Made by a program: the position numbers and the translations under genes. The notes below the pieces were generated by a model that had not been told where the DNA came from, made no database searches, and saw only the letters and a program-made list of their open reading frames with translations. Positions 9,624 through 26,158 of a stretch of DNA of 26,297 nucleotides are shown here, piece after piece. Position 1 is the first letter of the stretch. Each line of letters starts with the position of its first letter. The DNA comes from a virus: the IMG/VR virus record IMGVR_UViG_3300000525_000011, positions 1-26,297 of that record; one strand, given 5' to 3'.

Positions 9624-10076
9624 TTAATAAACCAAATCTTTTCGATAAAATTTTCCTAAAACATTATCATTATAACTTTCAACTAGAAGAACATCTTCTT
9701 TAAGTTGATAAGATATCTCCCAATATGTTAGTTCTTTTTTAGTTAAACATGTTTTTAATATATGTCTCTCGAACCCATCACCCTTTTGTGTTTTAAAATC
9801 TAAAATTAATTCTTTAGATGAACCCCAATAACTTATCCAATCACTTTCTAATTGGATTTTTTTAGTTAATGGTTTACGGCCTGGTGTGGTGATTTCTGTT
9901 AGTTCTTTCTTGGTTAGTTTTTTCTTTCGATTAAAGTATAATACTTTTTTCCCTATATATATTTTACCATTTATTAGGTTTTTAGTTTTATAAACAAAAC
10001 CAAAAGTGTTTTCGGGAAAATCATGTACTTCATTATATACTTTACCGGTTAAATCTGTCCAGTAATTATTGATCAT
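9624..10076 (-). CDS. GIY-YIG/Seg-like endonuclease-family protein
   Basis: This 150-residue protein has the outline of a compact GIY-YIG nuclease. The first motif appears as GFVYK (residues 26-30, with F-V-Y in place of G-I-Y), followed by KIYIGKK (residues 38-44, containing the YIG triad). Downstream are a basic stretch (KKKLTKKEL), a conserved DWISYWGSSKEL segment (79-90), an Arg in GFERHILK (R104), a Glu in YWEISYQ (E120) and an Asn-rich YNDN near residue 135. The order Tyr-Tyr-Arg-Glu-Asn is what the family uses for one-metal DNA cleavage. It matches the type found in T4-like phages as Seg-like or 'putative endonuclease' proteins. Whether it cuts DNA or acts as a homing enzyme cannot be told from sequence. 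It is 3' of the 99-residue tail gene and precedes the primase gene by 24 bases. Confidence 0.75.
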   Translation of the reverse strand: MINNYWTDLTGKVYNEVHDFPENTFGFVYKTKNLINGKIYIGKKVLYFNRKKKLTKKELTEITTPGRKPLTKKIQLESDWISYWGSSKELILDFKTQKGDGFERHILKTCLTKKELTYWEISYQLKEDVLLVESYNDNVLGKFYRKDLVY

Positions 10077-10365
10077 ATCTTATTATAAATGTTGTATCAG
10101 TTACATCGGACATAGGTAAGGGTTGGGCAAACTTTCCTACTAGTAATAATTCATTACTGTCATTATATAATCCTACGGTGGTAATATAAGGTTTAAAAAT
10201 AGAACCTGTAGCAAAATTTCTTAATGAACCTAATTTATCTGTTGTAATTGATGGGTTTTGAGTCATATTAAATTCGCTTTCAGCTACAGTACATATGATT
10301 TCATTCTCATATATTGTATATTTGTTTTTGAAAGATAATTTGTTTGGACCTACTTCTATTGCCAT
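10066..10365 (-). CDS. Stand-alone paralogue of the C-terminal domain of the 348-residue tail protein
   Basis: This 99-residue protein corresponds almost entirely to the C-terminal domain of the protein at 15400-16446. Shared landmarks in the same order are an I-Y-E/I-F-V strand, an (E/D)-F-N motif followed by a conserved N-P-S, a TT(V/I)GLYNDSNELL segment (residues 62-74) and a K-(F/L)-(A/S)-(Q/K)-PL turn. Ten residues are identical in a row, while the DNA has diverged, so the duplication is not recent. It directly follows the fibre gene (11-base gap) and overlaps the GIY-YIG-like gene by 11 bases. It may cap or trimerise a fibre, or occupy a baseplate position equivalent to the larger protein. 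The function is inferred only from the paralogy. Confidence 0.75.
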   Translation of the reverse strand: MAIEVGPNKLSFKNKYTIYENEIICTVAESEFNMTQNPSITTDKLGSLRNFATGSIFKPYITTVGLYNDSNELLLVGKFAQPLPMSDVTDTTFIIRYDQ

Positions 10366-10376
10366 AATTTATTTTT

Positions 10377-12110
10377 TTAACATGGTGAAGGTGCTTCTTC
10401 TATTATTAGTCCCCTATTAAAGCGTACAAAATTTCCCGATGGGGTTTTTCTCCAACTAGAACCTAAATCTAAAGGTATATATGCTGGTGAGCTATAGTAT
10501 ACAACACCTGAGGGGCCAAGTTTAAAATTAGTCATTGGGGTTGATGGGTTACATATACTTACTGATGATAAAGGATTTAATAATATAGGATTGATATTTG
10601 ATGGATCATTTAGTAAATAAGCATTAGAATACCATGAAAACTTAGAATAAGATACATTAGTTAGTTCAGTTCCACAAGTTTCATGTGCAATTATTTTACC
10701 TCCACTTACTATAACATTACTACCACCCCTACCAGATCCTGCTACTGGGAATCTACCAGATACTCCAATTTTTCCTAGCTCATAGGTTGTATTAATTTCA
10801 CCTGATTTATTTCTAGAGCATGCGGATTCTTGGGTTGGATATGCTCCTCTACTTGATGCTAATGTAATAGAAGGTCTTCTGCAAGTTCCTGTACTTTGCA
10901 TTCTACCATCTTTATTCACCACATAATAGGTCCCATCTCCATACAAAATATAATTTAAAATGTTAGGGAAAGTTCCTCTATTACTAGCTAAAGCATCAAT
11001 TTCATTAAGATATAACACATTCCCAAATTGGGAGTATGTTTCAGATCTATAATTTTCATTAAAATTACTGCATGCATCTTCTTCACTTCCAAATATAACA
11101 GAACCAAATTTTACTGTAGGAAAAGCTACTTCTACAGGAGGTGGACCATTAGGTCCTAGTGGTGGTGGAGGTGGTGGTGGTGGGGGAGTTGAGAATGGTG
11201 GTGGGACATTAAGTAAAGTAAATGTGGTGGTCGTTGTAGTATTATTTTTAGGTAAAACTAATTGTCTAATATTAAATACTAAACCAAGATCAGAAGTAAA
11301 AGTAGAACTATTATCATTATTATTATTAGGATTATTAAATCCACCTCCCGTAGTATATGTTTCTTTTTCTATACCATTAGTTATTCTTTGAATATAATTC
11401 CCATAAGCACTCCGTGCTCCTCCTTTTATTATAATATTTAAATTTTCAGAACGACCTGTAGAAGTCCAGGCACCTGAGTCAGGTGAAGAACCATAATCAT
11501 ACGTTATAGATTGTCCCGGGTCTATTCTATAGTTAGCATTTCCTCTAGTACTACGAAGTAAAACTTCCATAGCAGAAGAATAATTATTTTTAAATACAAT
11601 ATTTACACTTCCAGTATCTAATGGAGGTGGTAAAAGGTCATAAGTAAAAGATAAAGGGTCTGAATTTGGTGAAGGGTCAGGGCCACTACATGATGTAAAG
11701 GCTCTAAAATATACAGTACCACTTGTATATGATGATGAGATAGGAATAACTCCACCAATACCAGCATAAAAAGATTCACTTATATTAAAATTAATATCGT
11801 TACTAACTGAAGCTGTTATGTTTATTGGGGCATTTATTGAAGATTGGGTAACATAATTTATGTGAAATCTTCCTCTTTTTGAACCAGTATTTAAACTAGT
11901 TAGTAAAGGAACAATACAGGTTTCAAATCCAGGTTCACATAAAATAGGGTCATAGGCTCTATTATAATAATTTATATTATTTAAGCTTGATGAAAAAGGT
12001 GCTACTGTTAAATCTATATCAGACCCTGTTGACACAGCGCTACCCGAATTGGGACCTGTTGTGAAAAACTGTCGTACTGTATTATTTATTATGTATCCAG
12101 TATTAGCCAT
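10377..12110 (-). CDS. Putative tail fibre/adhesin with polyproline hinge and three Cys-bounded modules
   Basis: This 577-residue protein has several visible parts. Residues 1-160 are a fibronectin/Ig-like beta region. Residues about 165-250 look like a second beta domain (VNIVFKNNYSSAMEVLL, then YRIDPGQSITYDYG). A low-complexity Asn- and Thr-rich stretch covers about 257-297, and nine prolines in a row lie at 309-317. After this hinge come three modules that each open at a Cys and close at a Cys: C347-C410, C431-C479 and C520-C577. The first two share A-C at the start, a Y or beta strand in the middle and G-x-(M/I) before the closing Cys. Such modules occur in Bacteroidota surface and phage fibre proteins, to my knowledge without a firm function. 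It sits last in the large-fibre series. The receptor-binding role is inferred from layout. Confidence 0.72.
   Translation of the reverse strand: MANTGYIINNTVRQFFTTGPNSGSAVSTGSDIDLTVAPFSSSLNNINYYNRAYDPILCEPGFETCIVPLLTSLNTGSKRGRFHINYVTQSSINAPINITASVSNDINFNISESFYAGIGGVIPISSSYTSGTVYFRAFTSCSGPDPSPNSDPLSFTYDLLPPPLDTGSVNIVFKNNYSSAMEVLLRSTRGNANYRIDPGQSITYDYGSSPDSGAWTSTGRSENLNIIIKGGARSAYGNYIQRITNGIEKETYTTGGGFNNPNNNNDNSSTFTSDLGLVFNIRQLVLPKNNTTTTTTFTLLNVPPPFSTPPPPPPPPPLGPNGPPPVEVAFPTVKFGSVIFGSEEDACSNFNENYRSETYSQFGNVLYLNEIDALASNRGTFPNILNYILYGDGTYYVVNKDGRMQSTGTCRRPSITLASSRGAYPTQESACSRNKSGEINTTYELGKIGVSGRFPVAGSGRGGSNVIVSGGKIIAHETCGTELTNVSYSKFSWYSNAYLLNDPSNINPILLNPLSSVSICNPSTPMTNFKLGPSGVVYYSSPAYIPLDLGSSWRKTPSGNFVRFNRGLIIEEAPSPC
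11160..11186 (-). repeat. Proline-codon microsatellite (nine Pro codons) in the fibre gene
   Basis: On the plus strand this is an uninterrupted run of TGG/AGG/GGG triplets; on the coding strand it reads as nine proline codons, mostly CCA. It is the most GC-rich spot in the gene and stands out in an AT-rich window. It separates the N-terminal beta domains from the Cys-bounded C-terminal modules, so it probably forms a stiff polyproline II linker. Triplet tracts like this can change length by slippage without shifting the frame. Confidence 0.85.
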
Positions 12111-15100
12111 ATATTACGTTATCTATAAAATATTTTCCTATTGCTATTGCTCTATTATCTAAATTAGCTTGGGAATTTGATGAACCTATTGGTGATATAA
12201 ATAAATAGTATATTCGGTTAACATCTTTTATAAGTTCAATTTTTCTATTAAAAATTTCACCACCACCTAATCCTGTAGGTAAAGGCATTGTTGTATACTC
12301 ATCCTCATGTATTATTCCTATATACATAAGATCATTTTCCATTTTTTGAGATCCTGCAAATATTTTATATTCCTTATGAATATAATTTGTATTTGTTCGA
12401 ATTCCTACAGGGTCGTTACTATATTGATCTTTATCTGTGTAAGAATAAGCCTCAAAAAAACCTATATTGTCTACATCAGCAGTCAATAGCCATACCTTAT
12501 CAGTACGTTGGGTGAAATAGTATGCATTTTCACCACCAAATATACTAGCTGAAACTGAACCACTTAGAATTGAACCACTAGTGTATTTAACGTTTGAACC
12601 TGATATTGTGTTTATAATGTTTCCGAATCCATATTCTTCTCTAAAGAGTAATGTGTTTTTACCTATAAAACTTCCGGTATTACCGTATTCTATATCAATA
12701 AATTCATTACTACGAGCTATAAAATTTGAACCACTTCCATTACTTCCTGTTGTAGATAATAAATTAGCACTAGCTGTAAAATTATCTCTAATTTTTGATA
12801 ATGGTATTTGTCTATTAAATTTAAAATTAATATTAGTAGCTAAGTTTTCTGTATTTACTTTACTAGCAGTTAAATGTAGAGATTTAATACCATAATCAGG
12901 ACCAAAAGCTAAAGATACATCTAAGTTTTCATCAAATTGAACTATATTAGCATTACCTAATATGATTGCAGATGCTGTAATTTCACTTCCTGTTATATTA
13001 GAAGGGCCTGTTTCTCCCCAATTTGAACCACTAAATTCTCTTCTTAAATAAAAATTATCATTTGAACCCGTATACACATCTATATATAGAGTATCATTAT
13101 AATTCCATATTAAACTACCAGTTAAGCTACTAGATGTGGCTAATTGGATGGGTGATTCACTACCAGAACGAATTAATATATTTACCCATTCTGAACCAGT
13201 TTTTTCGTTGGTATAAAAATTTAACTTTCTTTGTCCTACTTGCTTACCTGTAAGACTACCAGTTCCATCTTCACAATTTGAACCCGTTAATTCCCAAGCT
13301 CTACCAAATATTTCTAAACTAGAGGTAGTAGAAGAACATGAAAATGAATCTTGTAATAAAACAGTACAAGCACCACCATTTAATTCATCTGCTATTAATG
13401 GGATTGAAAAATTCCCACTTGTGGTAACTTCTAAAAAATAATTAGACAGTAAGGTAGATGCTGTTATGCTGTAAGGAGGTACACCTCCTAGTAAATTTGA
13501 TATAATTAAAGAACTTGTATAGGCACTACTAGTGTAATCTATACTAGAGGTATATAATATAGGGGTTGAAGAGGTTAATTCAAATGTAAATCCATAAAAA
13601 CACCCATCATTATCTTGTATATTTAGTAAATATGTACCTGAAGGGATATTATCAATGTTTATAGAGTTTGTTATAAACCCATTAGGACCTGTCCATTCCC
13701 AATTAAATGGTTCAGCTCCCCCTGTTAGATATAGTTCTGGTTCTCTTTCTTCTAAAGAAATACTATCAAATTGGTATAAAGATATTTGTCCTGTTGATTT
13801 ACTAAAACAATCTATATGTTCTAAAACATAGCTTGCTGTTATAGGAGTTGTTTTTGTTATTTCTATTTGTGAAGTTGTAACACAATTATTAGTGTCTTTA
13901 AAATATACTGTATAATTACCTGTCTCTAGATTACTCATAGTATTAGGTAATTCAATATTATTGTCAAACGAAGCGCTTAAAGACGCTATGATAGGTAAGT
14001 CACCACTCGCGCTAGCAATTATATATCCATCGTTTATACCACAGAATGATACGTCATTCTGCCATAATTTACCATCTATAGGAGTAAAGGAGGTGTTTAT
14101 AGAATGAGTTACAATATCATCACCTCTATCTTTAATATATAAAGTAACCGATTGTGAGGGGAATATTGATGATGAAACTACAGGTTGAAATAAATCATTT
14201 ATGGGATTATAATTTATATTATCTATGGACCAGCTATATGGTGGTAAACCCCTATCTACTGTAAATACAACTGAAGAGGATTGGTTAGATAAATTTTGGT
14301 AACATGCAGGAGTGATTGATGAGATACTAGAAGTTAATGGTAGTGCTGCTATTTTTAGTATAACGGAACCTGTATTGCTATTTAAATTGAAATTATTTTT
14401 TACATTATAATTTAATCTATAATCTCCAGGTATTACACTAGTAATATTAGGAGTTATAATTAAATCCCCACTAGAACTAATAGTATAATCAGGAAAGTTA
14501 AAATTTGGGCTTTCAAAAGTATTTATAGATCCTGTAAGAATAAAACCACAATCATCAAAATCATCTTCTAGGGTAAGAATGGTTTTATTAACTTGGGTAT
14601 TTAATAATTCTACATAATTATTTCTAGCTACGGGATTACCTTCTATAAAACATATATAATCTACATTTGTAATTACAGCTATACCATGATTATAAAATAT
14701 ATTTCCCACAGGAACAGCAAGTGAACTATTACCAGCATATCCACTGTCAGAATCTAAGTAATTTACCCCTTCATAAGACCCCGCTAAAAGTTTATAATCA
14801 AATAGATTACCTTGTCCATCATCTTTAATTAAAAAATTTGAACCTGATAATTCAAAAGTAGTGGGTTGTACTCCATTTCCATATAAATCTTTAGGAATAG
14901 AAATTACTCTAATTTTAGCAGCATTTTCTATAAAATATATAGCTGTACCATATAAAGAAGAAGATACATTATCAAAGTTGTATTCTATACTTTCAAAATA
15001 AGGAAAACTCCTATAATTTTGTGCAAATGAACTTGATGCCATAGTGTTTTGCAGAAAATTATCATAAGATGAAGAATGCCAGAATTGACCAACATTCTTA

Positions 15101-15396
15101 GGATATATCAAATCTTCGGATTCTGTTTCTTGATCTAAAGATGATTTTGTAACATAATTTTGGTAGTAGAGGTGACGAATTGATTCATAAATCAAACGTC
15201 TATAATTACCATCTGTAGTTAAGTTATCGTTCTTAGGATCAAAAGGTCTATCATTTGTAATAGGGATATATTCTCCTATATAAGTTTGAATACCTTGGTC
15301 TTCATAAGAAGATGATAGAAAATCATATTGCTTATTAGCAACATAAGGAGTTGACTTTATGTCAGATGGGCTTAGTTTTTTGTATGCAAAACTCAT
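12103..15396 (-). CDS. Tail fibre/baseplate protein with SprB-like Ig repeats
   Basis: This 1097-residue protein has three parts. Residues 1-300 are an aromatic, Ser-rich structural region (GEYIPITNDRPF, YRRLIYESIRHLYYQNY, SFPYFESIEYNF), probably for docking to the baseplate. Residues about 360-695 contain four imperfect repeats of SprB type. The clearest run from C450 to C505 and from C530 to C599, with G-x-I after the first Cys, GG-x-x-P in the middle, a NL/NI-x-x-G-x-Y-x-V/L segment and D-x-x-x-C at the end. The C-terminal 400 residues are a beta-rich Ser/Gly/Asn domain ending in a more globular part with WLLTADVDNIGFFEAYSY. SprB repeats are known from secreted gliding adhesins of Bacteroidota. 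The gene overlaps the 577-residue fibre gene by 8 bases. A role in cell contact is inferred. Confidence 0.78.
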   Translation of the reverse strand: MSFAYKKLSPSDIKSTPYVANKQYDFLSSSYEDQGIQTYIGEYIPITNDRPFDPKNDNLTTDGNYRRLIYESIRHLYYQNYVTKSSLDQETESEDLIYPKNVGQFWHSSSYDNFLQNTMASSSFAQNYRSFPYFESIEYNFDNVSSSLYGTAIYFIENAAKIRVISIPKDLYGNGVQPTTFELSGSNFLIKDDGQGNLFDYKLLAGSYEGVNYLDSDSGYAGNSSLAVPVGNIFYNHGIAVITNVDYICFIEGNPVARNNYVELLNTQVNKTILTLEDDFDDCGFILTGSINTFESPNFNFPDYTISSSGDLIITPNITSVIPGDYRLNYNVKNNFNLNSNTGSVILKIAALPLTSSISSITPACYQNLSNQSSSVVFTVDRGLPPYSWSIDNINYNPINDLFQPVVSSSIFPSQSVTLYIKDRGDDIVTHSINTSFTPIDGKLWQNDVSFCGINDGYIIASASGDLPIIASLSASFDNNIELPNTMSNLETGNYTVYFKDTNNCVTTSQIEITKTTPITASYVLEHIDCFSKSTGQISLYQFDSISLEEREPELYLTGGAEPFNWEWTGPNGFITNSINIDNIPSGTYLLNIQDNDGCFYGFTFELTSSTPILYTSSIDYTSSAYTSSLIISNLLGGVPPYSITASTLLSNYFLEVTTSGNFSIPLIADELNGGACTVLLQDSFSCSSTTSSLEIFGRAWELTGSNCEDGTGSLTGKQVGQRKLNFYTNEKTGSEWVNILIRSGSESPIQLATSSSLTGSLIWNYNDTLYIDVYTGSNDNFYLRREFSGSNWGETGPSNITGSEITASAIILGNANIVQFDENLDVSLAFGPDYGIKSLHLTASKVNTENLATNINFKFNRQIPLSKIRDNFTASANLLSTTGSNGSGSNFIARSNEFIDIEYGNTGSFIGKNTLLFREEYGFGNIINTISGSNVKYTSGSILSGSVSASIFGGENAYYFTQRTDKVWLLTADVDNIGFFEAYSYTDKDQYSNDPVGIRTNTNYIHKEYKIFAGSQKMENDLMYIGIIHEDEYTTMPLPTGLGGGEIFNRKIELIKDVNRIYYLFISPIGSSNSQANLDNRAIAIGKYFIDNVIYG

Positions 15397-15399
15397 TCA

Positions 15400-16446
15400 T
15401 TAAAAATCTAATTTTACACGTACTAGTGCTTCTTTAGTAAAATCTTTTACTAAGGGTTTTGATAATTTAGCTACTGAAAGTAATTCATTTGAATCATTAT
15501 ATAAACCAATAGTTGTTACGAATGTTTGGGGATTGTTAATTAGACTTGAATATACAAATTCACCACTACCACTTATCATAGATGGGTTTGTTGAATAATT
15601 AAAATCAGAATTTCGTACTCTTACAAAAATATAATCAGAAGTTATTGTTTCTTCAGAATTAAGTGAAAAGGTTTGAGCTAGTTTAATTGATTCAAAAAGT
15701 GCACTATGGTTGGCTACTAAAGCTTCATTTGTTAAATCTCCATTTATTACTAATCCTGCACCTCCTAAAGAAGCAGATAATTGTAAAGCTTGTGGGTTTA
15801 ATAAAATTAGACCTACATCTGGGAGGAATTTACCATAAGAACCTGATGGTGTATATCCTGGTCTTACGGTTGAAGCTGAAACTGGAGTAGAGGTAGTTGC
15901 ACTACCATTTGTACCACTTACAATATCAAATACTCTACCAGCATCCGTATAGGTTAAAGTTGTTACATCTTTAGAATTGTCTGTAAGTTGTAAGCGAGAT
16001 ACTTCTGTACCATCAGAACCTGATATTGTTAGATTAAATGTTCCAGGGAATAGTTTTTCTTTATATCTTGCTCTATTAACATTTAATACAAAAACATCAT
16101 CTGAATTTGTATTCCCTACTCCAAAATTAAAATTTGTATTCTCATCTCCATTGATTAAAGTTCTAAACTGACCATATGTTACTCTGGTTGGAGAATTACC
16201 TGGGACTAGGTTGTTATATGGAGCAGACCCTGATCCTTCTACTTGACCATATGCAATTGAAAATTGTACTTCAGCATCTGATCTTAATGAACCCGTTTGA
16301 TATATATCCAAAAAAGTATTAAATGATGATGTTTGTGATGAGGTAAAGAATTGATTTAGGATGGGTGAACCACCTGACCATAAGGTAGAGGTAATTGAAT
16401 CAGCACTTACTATAAAATCGCTTGATTGTAAATTTATAAAGCTCAT
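15400..16446 (-). CDS. Tail/baseplate protein whose C-terminal domain is duplicated as a separate gene
   Basis: This 348-residue protein has an N-terminal region with an aromatic and Ser-rich start, then QFSIAYGQVEGSGSAPYN and GQFRTLING. The first of these is weakly reminiscent of the F-x-x-F/Y-G segment of T4 gp8-type wedge proteins, but the match is too weak to name it. The C-terminal 80 or so residues (about 267-348) contain NSDFNYSTNPS and TTIGLYNDSNELL. They match nearly the whole 99-residue protein encoded at 10066-10365, including ten identical residues in a row (GLYNDSNELL, residues 314-323). It lies between the 219-residue protein and the SprB-repeat protein. A structural baseplate or fibre-network role is inferred from position and from its beta-rich composition. 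Confidence 0.75.
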   Translation of the reverse strand: MSFINLQSSDFIVSADSITSTLWSGGSPILNQFFTSSQTSSFNTFLDIYQTGSLRSDAEVQFSIAYGQVEGSGSAPYNNLVPGNSPTRVTYGQFRTLINGDENTNFNFGVGNTNSDDVFVLNVNRARYKEKLFPGTFNLTISGSDGTEVSRLQLTDNSKDVTTLTYTDAGRVFDIVSGTNGSATTSTPVSASTVRPGYTPSGSYGKFLPDVGLILLNPQALQLSASLGGAGLVINGDLTNEALVANHSALFESIKLAQTFSLNSEETITSDYIFVRVRNSDFNYSTNPSMISGSGEFVYSSLINNPQTFVTTIGLYNDSNELLSVAKLSKPLVKDFTKEALVRVKLDF

Positions 16447-16457
16447 ATATTTTTATC

Positions 16458-17117
16458 TTATGATGTTACTTTAGTTATATTTAAAGGTATTGTTAATCTA
16501 GCTCCTGAATCTCTACCAGTAACTGTTAGAATTGTATTTAGTGTATTCGAGGTACCAAATAAAGTATTTATGGTTGTTGCTGTTAAATTTATTGTAGTTC
16601 CAATTATAGTACGAGATACATTTGTACCAATGGTGGATGATGAATTTAATTGAGTAGCATTTGGAGTAGTTACCCCTACACCTTCAAATTTAGATAAAGT
16701 TCTAGAATCTCCAATTGTAGCTACATACCCACTAGATTCAAATGTTGAATTTGTACCTAAGTAATTTAATGTTTGGGGTGTAATTGATAGTGAAGCACCT
16801 TGTTTTAAAGTAATAACTGTATATCCTAATTCTAAAACCGGAAGTTTTGCTGTACCTCTTGGTAAGGTAAGTAATTTATACTTCATAGTTTGAGTTTCAT
16901 CAGGAAATGCTTCTAGTATAGGCATATTTTCAATAGCCTCTCCATAAAATGCTGAACCTGATGGGTGGGTGGGGTTATACAATGTGTAATCAATTTCATC
17001 ATCTGCTAATGAAAATTGTGTAATTCTGAAAGAGCCATCGTTTCTAGCTAATAACTCACGTCCTTTTTTAGTGAGGATTGCATCAACTGTAACTGTGGTA
17101 TTATTTAAGTATCCCAT
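16458..17117 (-). CDS. Conserved marine T4-like phage tail/baseplate protein
   Basis: This 219-residue protein begins with a very conserved-looking N-terminus: MGYLNNTTVTVDAILTKKGR, then ELLARNDGSF, an ADDEIDYTLYN segment and an acidic ENMPILEAFPDETQ-MKYKL segment. I recognise this N-terminal type from structural proteins of marine T4-like phages, but I do not know an established function. The C-terminal half is a Thr/Asn-rich beta domain (INLTATTINTLFGTSN, then a GRDSGARLTIPLNI strand), like an adhesin or fibre tip. A 40-base gap precedes it and holds two overlapping TATTTATA sequences on the coding strand, so it may have its own promoter. It is followed by the 348-residue tail protein. Confidence 0.75.
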   Translation of the reverse strand: MGYLNNTTVTVDAILTKKGRELLARNDGSFRITQFSLADDEIDYTLYNPTHPSGSAFYGEAIENMPILEAFPDETQTMKYKLLTLPRGTAKLPVLELGYTVITLKQGASLSITPQTLNYLGTNSTFESSGYVATIGDSRTLSKFEGVGVTTPNATQLNSSSTIGTNVSRTIIGTTINLTATTINTLFGTSNTLNTILTVTGRDSGARLTIPLNITKVTS

Positions 17118-23874: not shown

Positions 23875-25752
23875 TTAATTTGTTATTACTCTACCTTGTA
23901 TATCGATGGTAGGGAATTTTACTTCAAATACACTTGGATCTAAGGATGGATATAAAACTTCGTTTATAGTTGCACCTTTAATATCGTATGAAAATTCCGA
24001 ATAATTACTTTCAATTCCGGATTTGTTGATTAATTCTAATTTTTTAACGGTTTGGACACCCTCTATATTATCAATTATATTACGAACATTATTTAATAAT
24101 ATTGGTTGGTTTAATTGCCATTTATCTATATCAAAGTATATAGTTAAAGCATTAATTATATTATTTAATATTACTCTATTATTAAAATTAGGCATGATTA
24201 TAACATCAAAATTAACCCCAATGTTTATTATAAAGGCATCTTTAATAGTAACAGCATCTGTTATCATCCTATATTCTCCCAAATAATTACTTAAGTTTTT
24301 CTTTAATGCGGGGTCTGCTATGGTTAATTTATTATTACTATCTCTTGATAAAACATATAATGATAAAGCATTAGTGTCAAATGAGCTTTCTGAGTTTAAA
24401 GTATTGGGTGAGATAGAATTATCTTGGGCAATGTATACTTTAGATAAAATACCATATTTTGAAGGTAATGATAAAGCTCTAATGGCATAATCATCCTTAG
24501 TTACAGTTCTTAATTGTGTTGGGTATTGAGCAGCAGCATTTAATCTAATATCTTCATTAGTATCCCCATTCCCTCCCCCTATAGCGGGTTGAGTATTTGT
24601 AAATGCTAAAGAATTTCGTGTTGTTGATTCTAATGTTGGGTCTAGATTATCCCCAAAAAATACCACATTACCCGAAGATAATATTGTTAAGGATTGGGCA
24701 GGTACATTTGAAGTTACACCTCCACCAGTTAAATATTCTACTGTAAGAGTAGTATTTGAAGGAGATAATCCGTAAGTTTTTGTATATAAAAAATTTGAAG
24801 GATCCCAAGCAGTGGTAAGTTTGTTTTGACCATAAGGCAATCCTAAACCTATATTATCAGAATTAGGAGTAATTACTTCATCCGGGTTAGATGAAATGCC
24901 GGGACCAAATTGTAATTCTAAGGTATTATTAGATTTGAATCTTTTTATAAATCTACGTGGTACCTTTTTAATTTTTAAAAGATATGGAGTAGTTTCATTG
25001 TACTGATATAATTCAGGGTTATTTTGTGCTATGTTGGTGGTAGGATCAAAAATGGTTTCTTGTGCCAAATAAGGTACTTCATACCATCTATTCCCATCAC
25101 TATCTGTTACTTTGATTATTTCTATTATATTATTATCCTCTATCTTTACAGTAGAAAACCTTTGAGGATTTGTAAAAGTAAAGTTTATTGTTTTTAAATC
25201 TCCGGCTGTAGATTTTGTTCTTTTTTTAAGTAAATAAAAATTTGGTTGGTTGTTTGAATCTAAAGAATATACAGAAATGTCTGTAGGGTCTGCACTACTT
25301 GATACTGTAAAATCTATTTTATTTTCTACATAAAAGAAAATGGATGTATTATTAGAAGATTGAATTTGTGATCCTTCCTCAACTATCAGGGCATAATTAA
25401 AATCTGGAGATACTAACCCACCCTCAATAGTGGAAGGTATTGTTTGGTAAACATCTAGATTGGTAGATGCTGCATTAGTTACTTGAGGGAAATATCCTGA
25501 ATTATATGCTAGTGAAAGCAAACTATTCCTCTGTTTGGCAAATTGTAAGAAATTTTCTTGTATTTGGTTATCAGTATAAAATGATAATACATCACCAACA
25601 TAAGAAGCCATTTCTATAAGCATAAGACCAGCAGAGGTTTCTGAAAAGTCATTATAAGTATTTGGGTAATATATTTCAGCAAATTCTAAAAGTTTTTGCT
25701 TAAATCCATCAAAATCTTTATTTATATATTGTATTTGTTTAGACTCCGCCAT
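23875..25752 (-). CDS. 6: Baseplate wedge protein, gp6-like (baseplate J family)
   Basis: This 625-residue protein is the gp6/P2 gpJ-type baseplate wedge subunit that forms the ring connecting wedges in contractile tails. The N-terminal signature at about residues 38-87 has the pattern ETSAGLMLIEMASYVGD followed by LSFYTDNQIQENFLQFAKQR and LAYNSGY. This is the classic gp6/J region in which a helical segment precedes the beta domains. The central and C-terminal parts are beta-rich, and near residues 395-430 is the region that includes LNAAAQYPTQLRTVTKDDY, typical of the J-like core. The length is close to T4 gp6 (660 residues). It overlaps the gp25-like gene by 14 bases and is followed 6 bases later by the next structural gene. 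Confidence 0.92.
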   Translation of the reverse strand: MAESKQIQYINKDFDGFKQKLLEFAEIYYPNTYNDFSETSAGLMLIEMASYVGDVLSFYTDNQIQENFLQFAKQRNSLLSLAYNSGYFPQVTNAASTNLDVYQTIPSTIEGGLVSPDFNYALIVEEGSQIQSSNNTSIFFYVENKIDFTVSSSADPTDISVYSLDSNNQPNFYLLKKRTKSTAGDLKTINFTFTNPQRFSTVKIEDNNIIEIIKVTDSDGNRWYEVPYLAQETIFDPTTNIAQNNPELYQYNETTPYLLKIKKVPRRFIKRFKSNNTLELQFGPGISSNPDEVITPNSDNIGLGLPYGQNKLTTAWDPSNFLYTKTYGLSPSNTTLTVEYLTGGGVTSNVPAQSLTILSSGNVVFFGDNLDPTLESTTRNSLAFTNTQPAIGGGNGDTNEDIRLNAAAQYPTQLRTVTKDDYAIRALSLPSKYGILSKVYIAQDNSISPNTLNSESSFDTNALSLYVLSRDSNNKLTIADPALKKNLSNYLGEYRMITDAVTIKDAFIINIGVNFDVIIMPNFNNRVILNNIINALTIYFDIDKWQLNQPILLNNVRNIIDNIEGVQTVKKLELINKSGIESNYSEFSYDIKGATINEVLYPSLDPSVFEVKFPTIDIQGRVITN

Positions 25753-26158
25753 TATTGAGGTTTATTTGAAGTTCATCTTCAATATTTGTGTTAATTATAG
25801 AATACTTTATGTATATAGTAATTGATTTTGTTGATGTAGATAAATCTACTACTAAATTATCTATCTTAATTTGAGGAAAATATTGTTCAACACCACCATA
25901 TATTAAATTTTCAATTTGATCAACTCTTTCTTCAGTTATGGGTTCAAATAAAACATCTCTAATCCCTGAACCAAATGTTGGGTTCATTATTCTTTCTCTC
26001 TTACCAGTTAATATAAAGTTTAATAGGTTGGATTTAGTAGCATCTTTAGTACTATAAGTAGTGTTAATACCTGTGGGTCCATTAAAGGGTAAAGATATAC
26101 CTACACCTATACTAGGGTTAAGATCTAAAATATCAACATTTCTTACAATATAAGCCAT
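25739..26158 (-). CDS. 25: Baseplate wedge protein, gp25-like (GPW/gp25 family)
   Basis: This 139-residue protein fits the GPW/gp25 family, a lysozyme-fold-derived subunit of the baseplate wedge in contractile tails. The diagnostic stretch is at residues 53-73: a basic/acidic start (KRERIMNP), then TFGSGIRDVLFEP, matching the family pattern of a conserved Arg/Glu, an FG.G turn and a final F-E-P. The length matches T4 gp25 (about 130 residues). Its 3' end overlaps the start of the gp6-like gene by 14 bases. This is the gp25-gp6 order seen in many T4-like marine phages, where the two proteins pack together in the wedge core. The start ATG overlaps the stop of the upstream gene and has no Shine-Dalgarno sequence. 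Confidence 0.94.
   Translation of the reverse strand: MAYIVRNVDILDLNPSIGVGISLPFNGPTGINTTYSTKDATKSNLLNFILTGKRERIMNPTFGSGIRDVLFEPITEERVDQIENLIYGGVEQYFPQIKIDNLVVDLSTSTKSITIYIKYSIINTNIEDELQINLNNGGV

Follow-up and report, generated by a model that had tools for sequence, protein, structure and literature searches.

What kind of phage protein carries repeats resembling those of the Bacteroidota gliding adhesin SprB, and what would such repeats do there? The question is raised by a 1097-residue open reading frame on a 26,297-nucleotide stretch of viral DNA (the window; bases 1-26297 of a 35,253-base IMG/VR virus record), in which a preliminary description had placed four SprB-type repeats at 13312-14319. 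These coordinates are right and correspond, on the minus strand, to residues 360-695 of the protein. The reading that we favor, at a probability of about 0.62, is a virion tail-fiber or baseplate adhesin of a T4-like contractile phage, in which SprB-like repeats form a stem, the last of them (R4) contacts the host, and the whole is a cassette placed in an ancestral tail gene.

Position of the repeat protein in a tail locus

The gene had been described as fiber-like, and both its position in a tail locus (Table 1) and its N-terminal homology bear this out. It lies in a tail operon near genes for gp6-like and gp25-like proteins, its N-terminal tail domain is conserved, and its homologs are syntenic. 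Over 99-100% of its length, the gp6-like protein shares 44-45% identity with its counterparts in the Flavobacterium phage immuto and in the Microcystis phage Mel-JY01. The N-terminal part of the 1097-aa protein was found at related loci on viral contigs (n = 16), and residues 1-245 are conserved at 67-82% in close orthologs; a PHROGs search returned nothing for the protein, and tblastn of its whole length against 50,697 phage records found no relative. In the Ig/cadherin-like domain, matches of orthologs to Big_9/Bact_surface_Ig-like stayed below threshold. Beyond the repeats, residues 701-814 are conserved within the window clade only, and the C-terminal domain is 70-84% identical in that clade and of unrelated sequence in the L014/L015 clade. 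The 577-aa companion protein is 49-71% identical in window-clade relatives and absent from the L014 clade; it has a polyproline run and no family match, and was seen in the window clade only.

Table 1 Features of the tail locus in the window
Feature	Position	Strand	Basis or remark
1097-aa tail protein with SprB-like repeats	12103..15396	-	ORF; tail-gene synteny with immuto and Mel-JY01
N-terminal domain, residues 1-245, presumed tail attachment	14662..15396	-	Homology to immuto gp105
Ig/cadherin-like domain, residues 246-352	14341..14661	-	Predicted all-beta, pLDDT about 83-94 over most
R1, residues 353-441, degenerate SprB-like unit	14074..14340	-	Marginal similarity to R3
R2, residues 442-518, SprB-like unit	13843..14073	-	SprB-unit HMM iE 1.6e-7 at 447-516
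R3, residues 519-613, SprB-like unit	13558..13842	-	SprB-unit HMM iE 3.3e-7 at 556-609
R4, residues 614-700, hypervariable SprB-like unit	13297..13557	-	Profile similarity to R3
Beta-rich domain, residues 701-814	12955..13296	-	Weak model
C-terminal domain, residues 815-1097 and stop codon	12103..12954	-	Low-confidence model
577-aa companion protein	10377..12110	-	Downstream; 8-base overlap with fiber gene
99-aa ORF, apparent displaced C-terminal half of ancestral tail gene	10066..10365	-	Immuto gp105, Mel-JY01 WWT39517
Tail protein, same C-terminal domain family as 10066-10365	15400..16446	-	49% to immuto gp106, E 3e-108
Conserved tail protein	16458..17117	-	76% to immuto gp107, E 1e-123
Baseplate wedge proteins, gp6-like and gp25-like	23875..26158	-	PHROG and Pfam matches; right end of window

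The four repeat units

Unit limits were set by alignment with 16 orthologous phage proteins. R3 has the full SprB layout (C530 ... GGAEPF ... NIPSGTY ... DNDGC599) and that of R2 is near-complete (C452 ... SGDLP ... NLETGNY ... DTNNC505), with GD replacing GG. R4 retains GGVPPY and DSFSC687 and lacks the first Cys and NLxxGxY; R1 has GLPPYSW and C365, which is invariant in 17 sequences, and lacks both NLxxGxY and DxxxC. When units were compared profile against profile (nine sequences per unit; 60 column shuffles as the null), R3-R4 (E 1.3e-11), R2-R3 (2.5e-6) and R2-R4 (2.5e-5) all exceeded every shuffle, and R1-R3 was marginal (score 21.0, shuffle maximum 18.7). The observed repeats are therefore real, as three related units and one probably degenerate one; of the four SprB-layout repeats first proposed, R2 and R3 stand, R4 becomes a relative and R1 is weak.

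Relation to SprB repeats of Bacteroidota

The Pfam profile PF13573 (curated cut-off 28 bits), suggested earlier as a check, gave nothing for the window protein at any E up to 10, but passed the cut-off in two orthologs (L034, 32.1 bits; L036, 34.6 bits), for which it was the best Pfam family, and matched orthologs L011 and L015 below it. An HMM of 91 Bacteroidota SprB units, built from loci whose retrieval used the window to confirm matches and so carrying a mild selection bias, matched the window at E 2.5e-16, with none of 200 region shuffles matching; this bias does not touch the Pfam matches in orthologs. When 84,980 species genomes were scanned, 78 of the best 80 loci came from Bacteroidota and two from Verrucomicrobia MAGs, at 24-35% identity; the query alignment included a synthetic SprB-like consensus row, which shaped the search patterns only, the confirming sequence being the window. 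All four proteins checked among these loci are SprB-repeat proteins by Pfam. By blastp, R2 and R3 matched many ORFs from the scan (among them a Bacteroidota SprB protein, which R3 matched at E 2e-11), R1 matched three and R4 one (E near 0.003-0.008), and no match to the same ORFs was obtained with shuffled or reversed R2/R3 or with the protein's other domains (N-terminal, Ig, middle, C-terminal). The relationship to SprB repeats is thus upheld by the HMM, the Bacteroidota relatives and the ortholog Pfam scores.

SprB proteins (PF13573, e.g., that of Flavobacterium johnsoniae) share with the window protein the first Cys, GG-x-x-P-Y, N-L-x-x-G-x-Y and D-x-x-G-C, whereas the window protein has three or four diverged units only, lacks both a signal peptide and a type IX signal, and is encoded in a phage tail operon. 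The preliminary description had also suggested that the phage took up a module from a host adhesin. The relationship itself stands, but identity is only 24-35% to the best bacterial stretches found, and no donor came to light. Since the repeats also run throughout a divergent phage clade, the transfer would be old and may have gone in either direction, so that host capture is plausible but ancient.

These differences also bear on whether the protein might be no virion part at all but a phage-encoded adhesin exported to the surface of the infected cell via host type IX secretion. Two other phage contigs do encode proteins with signal-peptide-like N-termini and CHU_C, one of them with SprB repeats (below). 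The window protein, however, starts MSFAYKKLSPSDIK, with no signal peptide by inspection, gave no above-threshold CHU_C or Por_Secre_tail match, and has an N-terminal domain that belongs to a tail-operon family, which makes export very improbable. NCBIfam and Pfam together returned for the protein only a sub-threshold internal Por_Secre_tail match, at residues 576-597, which was rejected as a sorting signal, being the GTYxLxxxDxxGC part of R3.

SprB-like repeats and ordinary phage Ig domains

Phages also carry Ig-type decoration domains (T5 pb10, T4-like Hoc), which could have converged on the motif GG-P-Y-W ... G-Y-x-V-x-D with no link to Bacteroidota adhesins. SprB-type and pb10-type domains are both Ig-like folds, and pb10 was the top PDB sequence match to a profile of the repeat region, at a weak E of 0.017. 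T5 pb10-type domains reached 24-41 bits with the SprB HMM and as many as 26.7 with PF13573, but the window scored 59.8 bits on the SprB HMM against 10.3 on a pb10-type Ig HMM, whose own building members scored 105-124 bits and which is thus not its best fit. The frame of first Cys and DxxxC is missing in pb10-type domains, the orthologs that pass the PF13573 cut-off have it as their best Pfam family, and the closest bacterial relatives are nearly all Bacteroidota; together these points render convergence of decoration domains doubtful. The head-decoration Ig domain was accordingly rejected as the closest family on profile scores and retained as kin: Hoc and pb10 domains share the Ig-like fold (predicted in the window) and part of the motif, but lack the Cys frame, decorate heads and fit their own profile far better. 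Judged from these scores, SprB repeats and the Ig domains common in phages are kin that differ in degree, and the accurate label is therefore "SprB-like Ig-type repeat". As SprB profiles also pick up generic phage Ig domains, those of T5 pb10 among them, an adhesin label alone is no proof of binding. The repeats might, as was first suggested, bind glycans or the gliding machinery.

Predicted fold of the repeat region

AlphaFold2 (17 sequences) modeled residues 246-702 as an all-beta chain with a mean pLDDT of 73, of good quality for the Ig domain, R1 and R4 and poor for R2 and part of R3 (pLDDT about 30-62). The structure prediction called for earlier thus yields a predicted chain of Ig-like domains, with low confidence in those two stretches. 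The best solved-structure match of this model, with Foldseek (E 7.6e-10) and with VIA-align alike, was GhpA, a grappling-hook adhesin of the Bacteroidota member Aureispira (PDB 9flv and related entries), which has in common with it a chain of Ig-like domains and a match by sequence to an SprB-type profile; this profile contains a synthetic consensus. GhpA differs in being a very large bacterial hook protein with 11-15% sequence identity, and VIA-align superposed the two flexibly (Z 10.4, rmsd 13.3, 379 aligned residues), with low whole-chain TM-scores (about 0.3). The best viral structural match was annotated "SprB repeat [uncultured Caudovirales phage]" (E 5.8e-12), and a sequence search of solved structures with the window repeats alone gave no match. 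The C-terminal model was poor (55) and its best VIA Z was 6.2, to scattered folds, so that the receptor-binding tip could alternatively lie in the C-terminal domain or in ORF 10377-12110.

A hypervariable last unit

Within the window clade, mean pairwise identity per 15-residue bin is 37-59% in R4 (residues 616-705) and mostly 70-90% elsewhere; orthologs are about 45% identical in R4 versus about 70-90% in other parts, and the limits of this variability coincide with the one repeat unit. In four pairs, dN in R4 was 0.57-0.74 compared with mostly 0.03-0.25 in neighboring domains, the pair L012-L013 having 0.57 in R4 and 0.03-0.12 in all other domains. The dN/dS of R4 was 0.7-1.4 in four pairs, these ratios being rough at high dS. 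The contrast was not seen for the window and L001, nor in the L014 clade, in which variation is greater in R3 or in the C-terminal part. Substitutions in R4 fall in all classes without the adenine bias looked for as a sign of a diversity-generating retroelement, and a search for reverse transcriptase in four records, all possibly fragments and including a 166-kb relative, found none. Its hypervariability makes R4 the likely host-contact domain, although its divergence could also stem from relaxed constraint or domain swapping rather than receptor selection.

The same rates speak to a different division of labor, in which the repeats are a rigid stem that distances the C-terminal domain or the product of ORF 10377-12110 from the baseplate and recognition occurs elsewhere. 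Tandem Ig-type domains often serve as stalks, and R1-R3 evolve at ordinary rates; the L014 clade moreover has an entirely different C-terminal region, and such replacement is common in receptor tips. Within the window clade, however, variability is sharpest in R4 and not in the well-conserved C-terminal domain, and we consider a pure spacer possible but on balance unlikely.

An apparently split ancestral tail gene

Residues 4-244 align with the N-terminal portion of immuto gp105 (E 1.7e-6), and the N-terminal domain weakly matches Mel-JY01 WWT39517 (E 1e-3). The 99-aa ORF at 10066-10365 is 43.5% identical to residues 249-356 of gp105 (E 3e-24) and 52% to residues 500-590 of WWT39517 (E 7e-27), so that 14662-15396 and 10066-10365 match the N- and C-halves of gp105 in order. 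These two parts appear to derive from a single ancestral tail gene whose halves a cassette of about 4.3 kb now keeps apart. Gp105 of the Flavobacterium phage vB_FspM_immuto shares the N- and C-terminal tail domains and the gene neighborhood but is a single 357-aa gene product without repeats. Both halves likewise form one compact gene in L018 (302 aa) and L020 (308 aa) and lie at the two ends of a 1657-aa gene in L021, whereas differing large ORFs or extensions come between them in L017, L019 and the window and L014 clades. The simplest reading of this pattern is that one tail gene has repeatedly served as the docking frame into which cassettes for host recognition were placed. An extra domain of ~107 aa, putatively cupredoxin-like, sits at two different sites in orthologs (residues 791-897 in L004, 1068-1174 in L011), insertions that again show modular exchange. 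Among the corresponding tail cassettes, that of L017 (12574-13392) gave a sub-threshold match to glycosyltransferase family 2, and that of L019 (11866-12981) encodes a von Willebrand factor A domain protein.

Host and comparable arrays in other phages

A Bacteroidota host, as first suggested, is well supported by the relatives of the repeats, by immuto as a close cultured relative and by the absence of Shine-Dalgarno signals. The closest tail proteins are those of the Flavobacterium phage immuto (gp107, 76%; gp106, 49%). Bacteroidota genes characteristically lack Shine-Dalgarno signals, and such a motif was found at 0 of 19 gene starts in the window compared with 1 of 17 in immuto and 7 of 16 in Mel-JY01; as chance alone would give an estimated ~2 of 19, this absence is supporting evidence only. 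That Mel-JY01 is recorded on a cyanobacterium calls for caution.

A literature search found no paper on SprB repeats in phages. The closest published parallel is that of crAss-like phages, whose tail-associated tandem arrays of BACON domains have a proposed role in host binding (PMC6949934). Here too a Bacteroidota-type domain forms a tail-associated tandem array, but in a different phage group and from another domain family, the crAss-like arrays being those of gut phages. Across the 50,697 phage records, the 642-kb LR756502 was alone in matching the R2-R3 segment at an E below 0.1 (E 7e-3), and alone in matching a canonical SprB array at that level. Canonical repeats on phage contigs (L040, L128 and L137; UniProt A0A6J5LD72) belong to the same repeat family but differ in having 10-14 canonical units, in their cadherin domains (L040) or type IX signal (L137), and in lying in a non-orthologous gene.

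In L040 (2391-7367) and L128 (5400-10334), a viral-contig gene encodes six cadherin domains and about ten SprB repeats. It stands within a tail-like gene cluster and adjoins genes for TPT-rich proteins and for one resembling, by eye, the tail protein at 16458-17117 of the window. In L137 (8873-13882; LR756502.1, an uncultured phage), a protein of 1670 aa begins with a signal-peptide-like stretch and carries 13-14 canonical SprB repeats along with PKD and a type IX secretion signal (CHU_C). By its domain content, this protein of a huge phage is a complete exported adhesin in the style of the host. L133 (6417-9128; IMGVR 3300017917_003859, 155 kb) has a signal-peptide-like start, PKD and a CHU_C type IX signal near genes for a major head protein and PhoH, and its product is likely phage-encoded type IX cargo.

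Discussion

Our preferred reading is that ORF 12103-15396 encodes a virion adhesin, either a tail fiber or attached to the baseplate, of a T4-like contractile phage whose host most likely belongs to the Bacteroidota. The N-terminal domain would anchor the protein in the tail, and the Ig-like domain with the three or four SprB-like Ig-type repeats that follow would form an extended, outward-facing stem. R4 would be the diversifying domain that contacts the host, while the conserved C-terminal domains and the products of ORFs 10377-12110 and 10066-10365 would complete the fiber assembly. Stem and C-terminal region would together be a cassette between the halves of a shorter ancestral tail protein, which is intact in immuto and others. 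In this reading the tail locus, the separation of the N- and C-halves, the homology of R2 and R3 to SprB repeats and the localized hypervariability are shown by the data and the Ig-like fold is a prediction, whereas outward exposure, contact with the host through R4 and adhesion are inferred.

Little is known of the receptors and adsorption proteins of phages that infect Bacteroidota. It is also conceivable, if improbable, that the phage mimics host gliding-adhesin repeats, with a hypervariable last unit that engages the SprB/type IX machinery or SprB partners; a moving track of host adhesin would then be the point of phage entry. As context only, gliding proteins including SprB and RemA have been suggested as possible receptors of Bacteroidota phages (PMC7345892, PMC13288928). 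Overall, the tail-adhesin reading would provide a concrete candidate adhesin family for these phages, offers a hypervariable segment of a single domain for testing host recognition, and points to a conserved tail gene as an apparent site for placing recognition cassettes.
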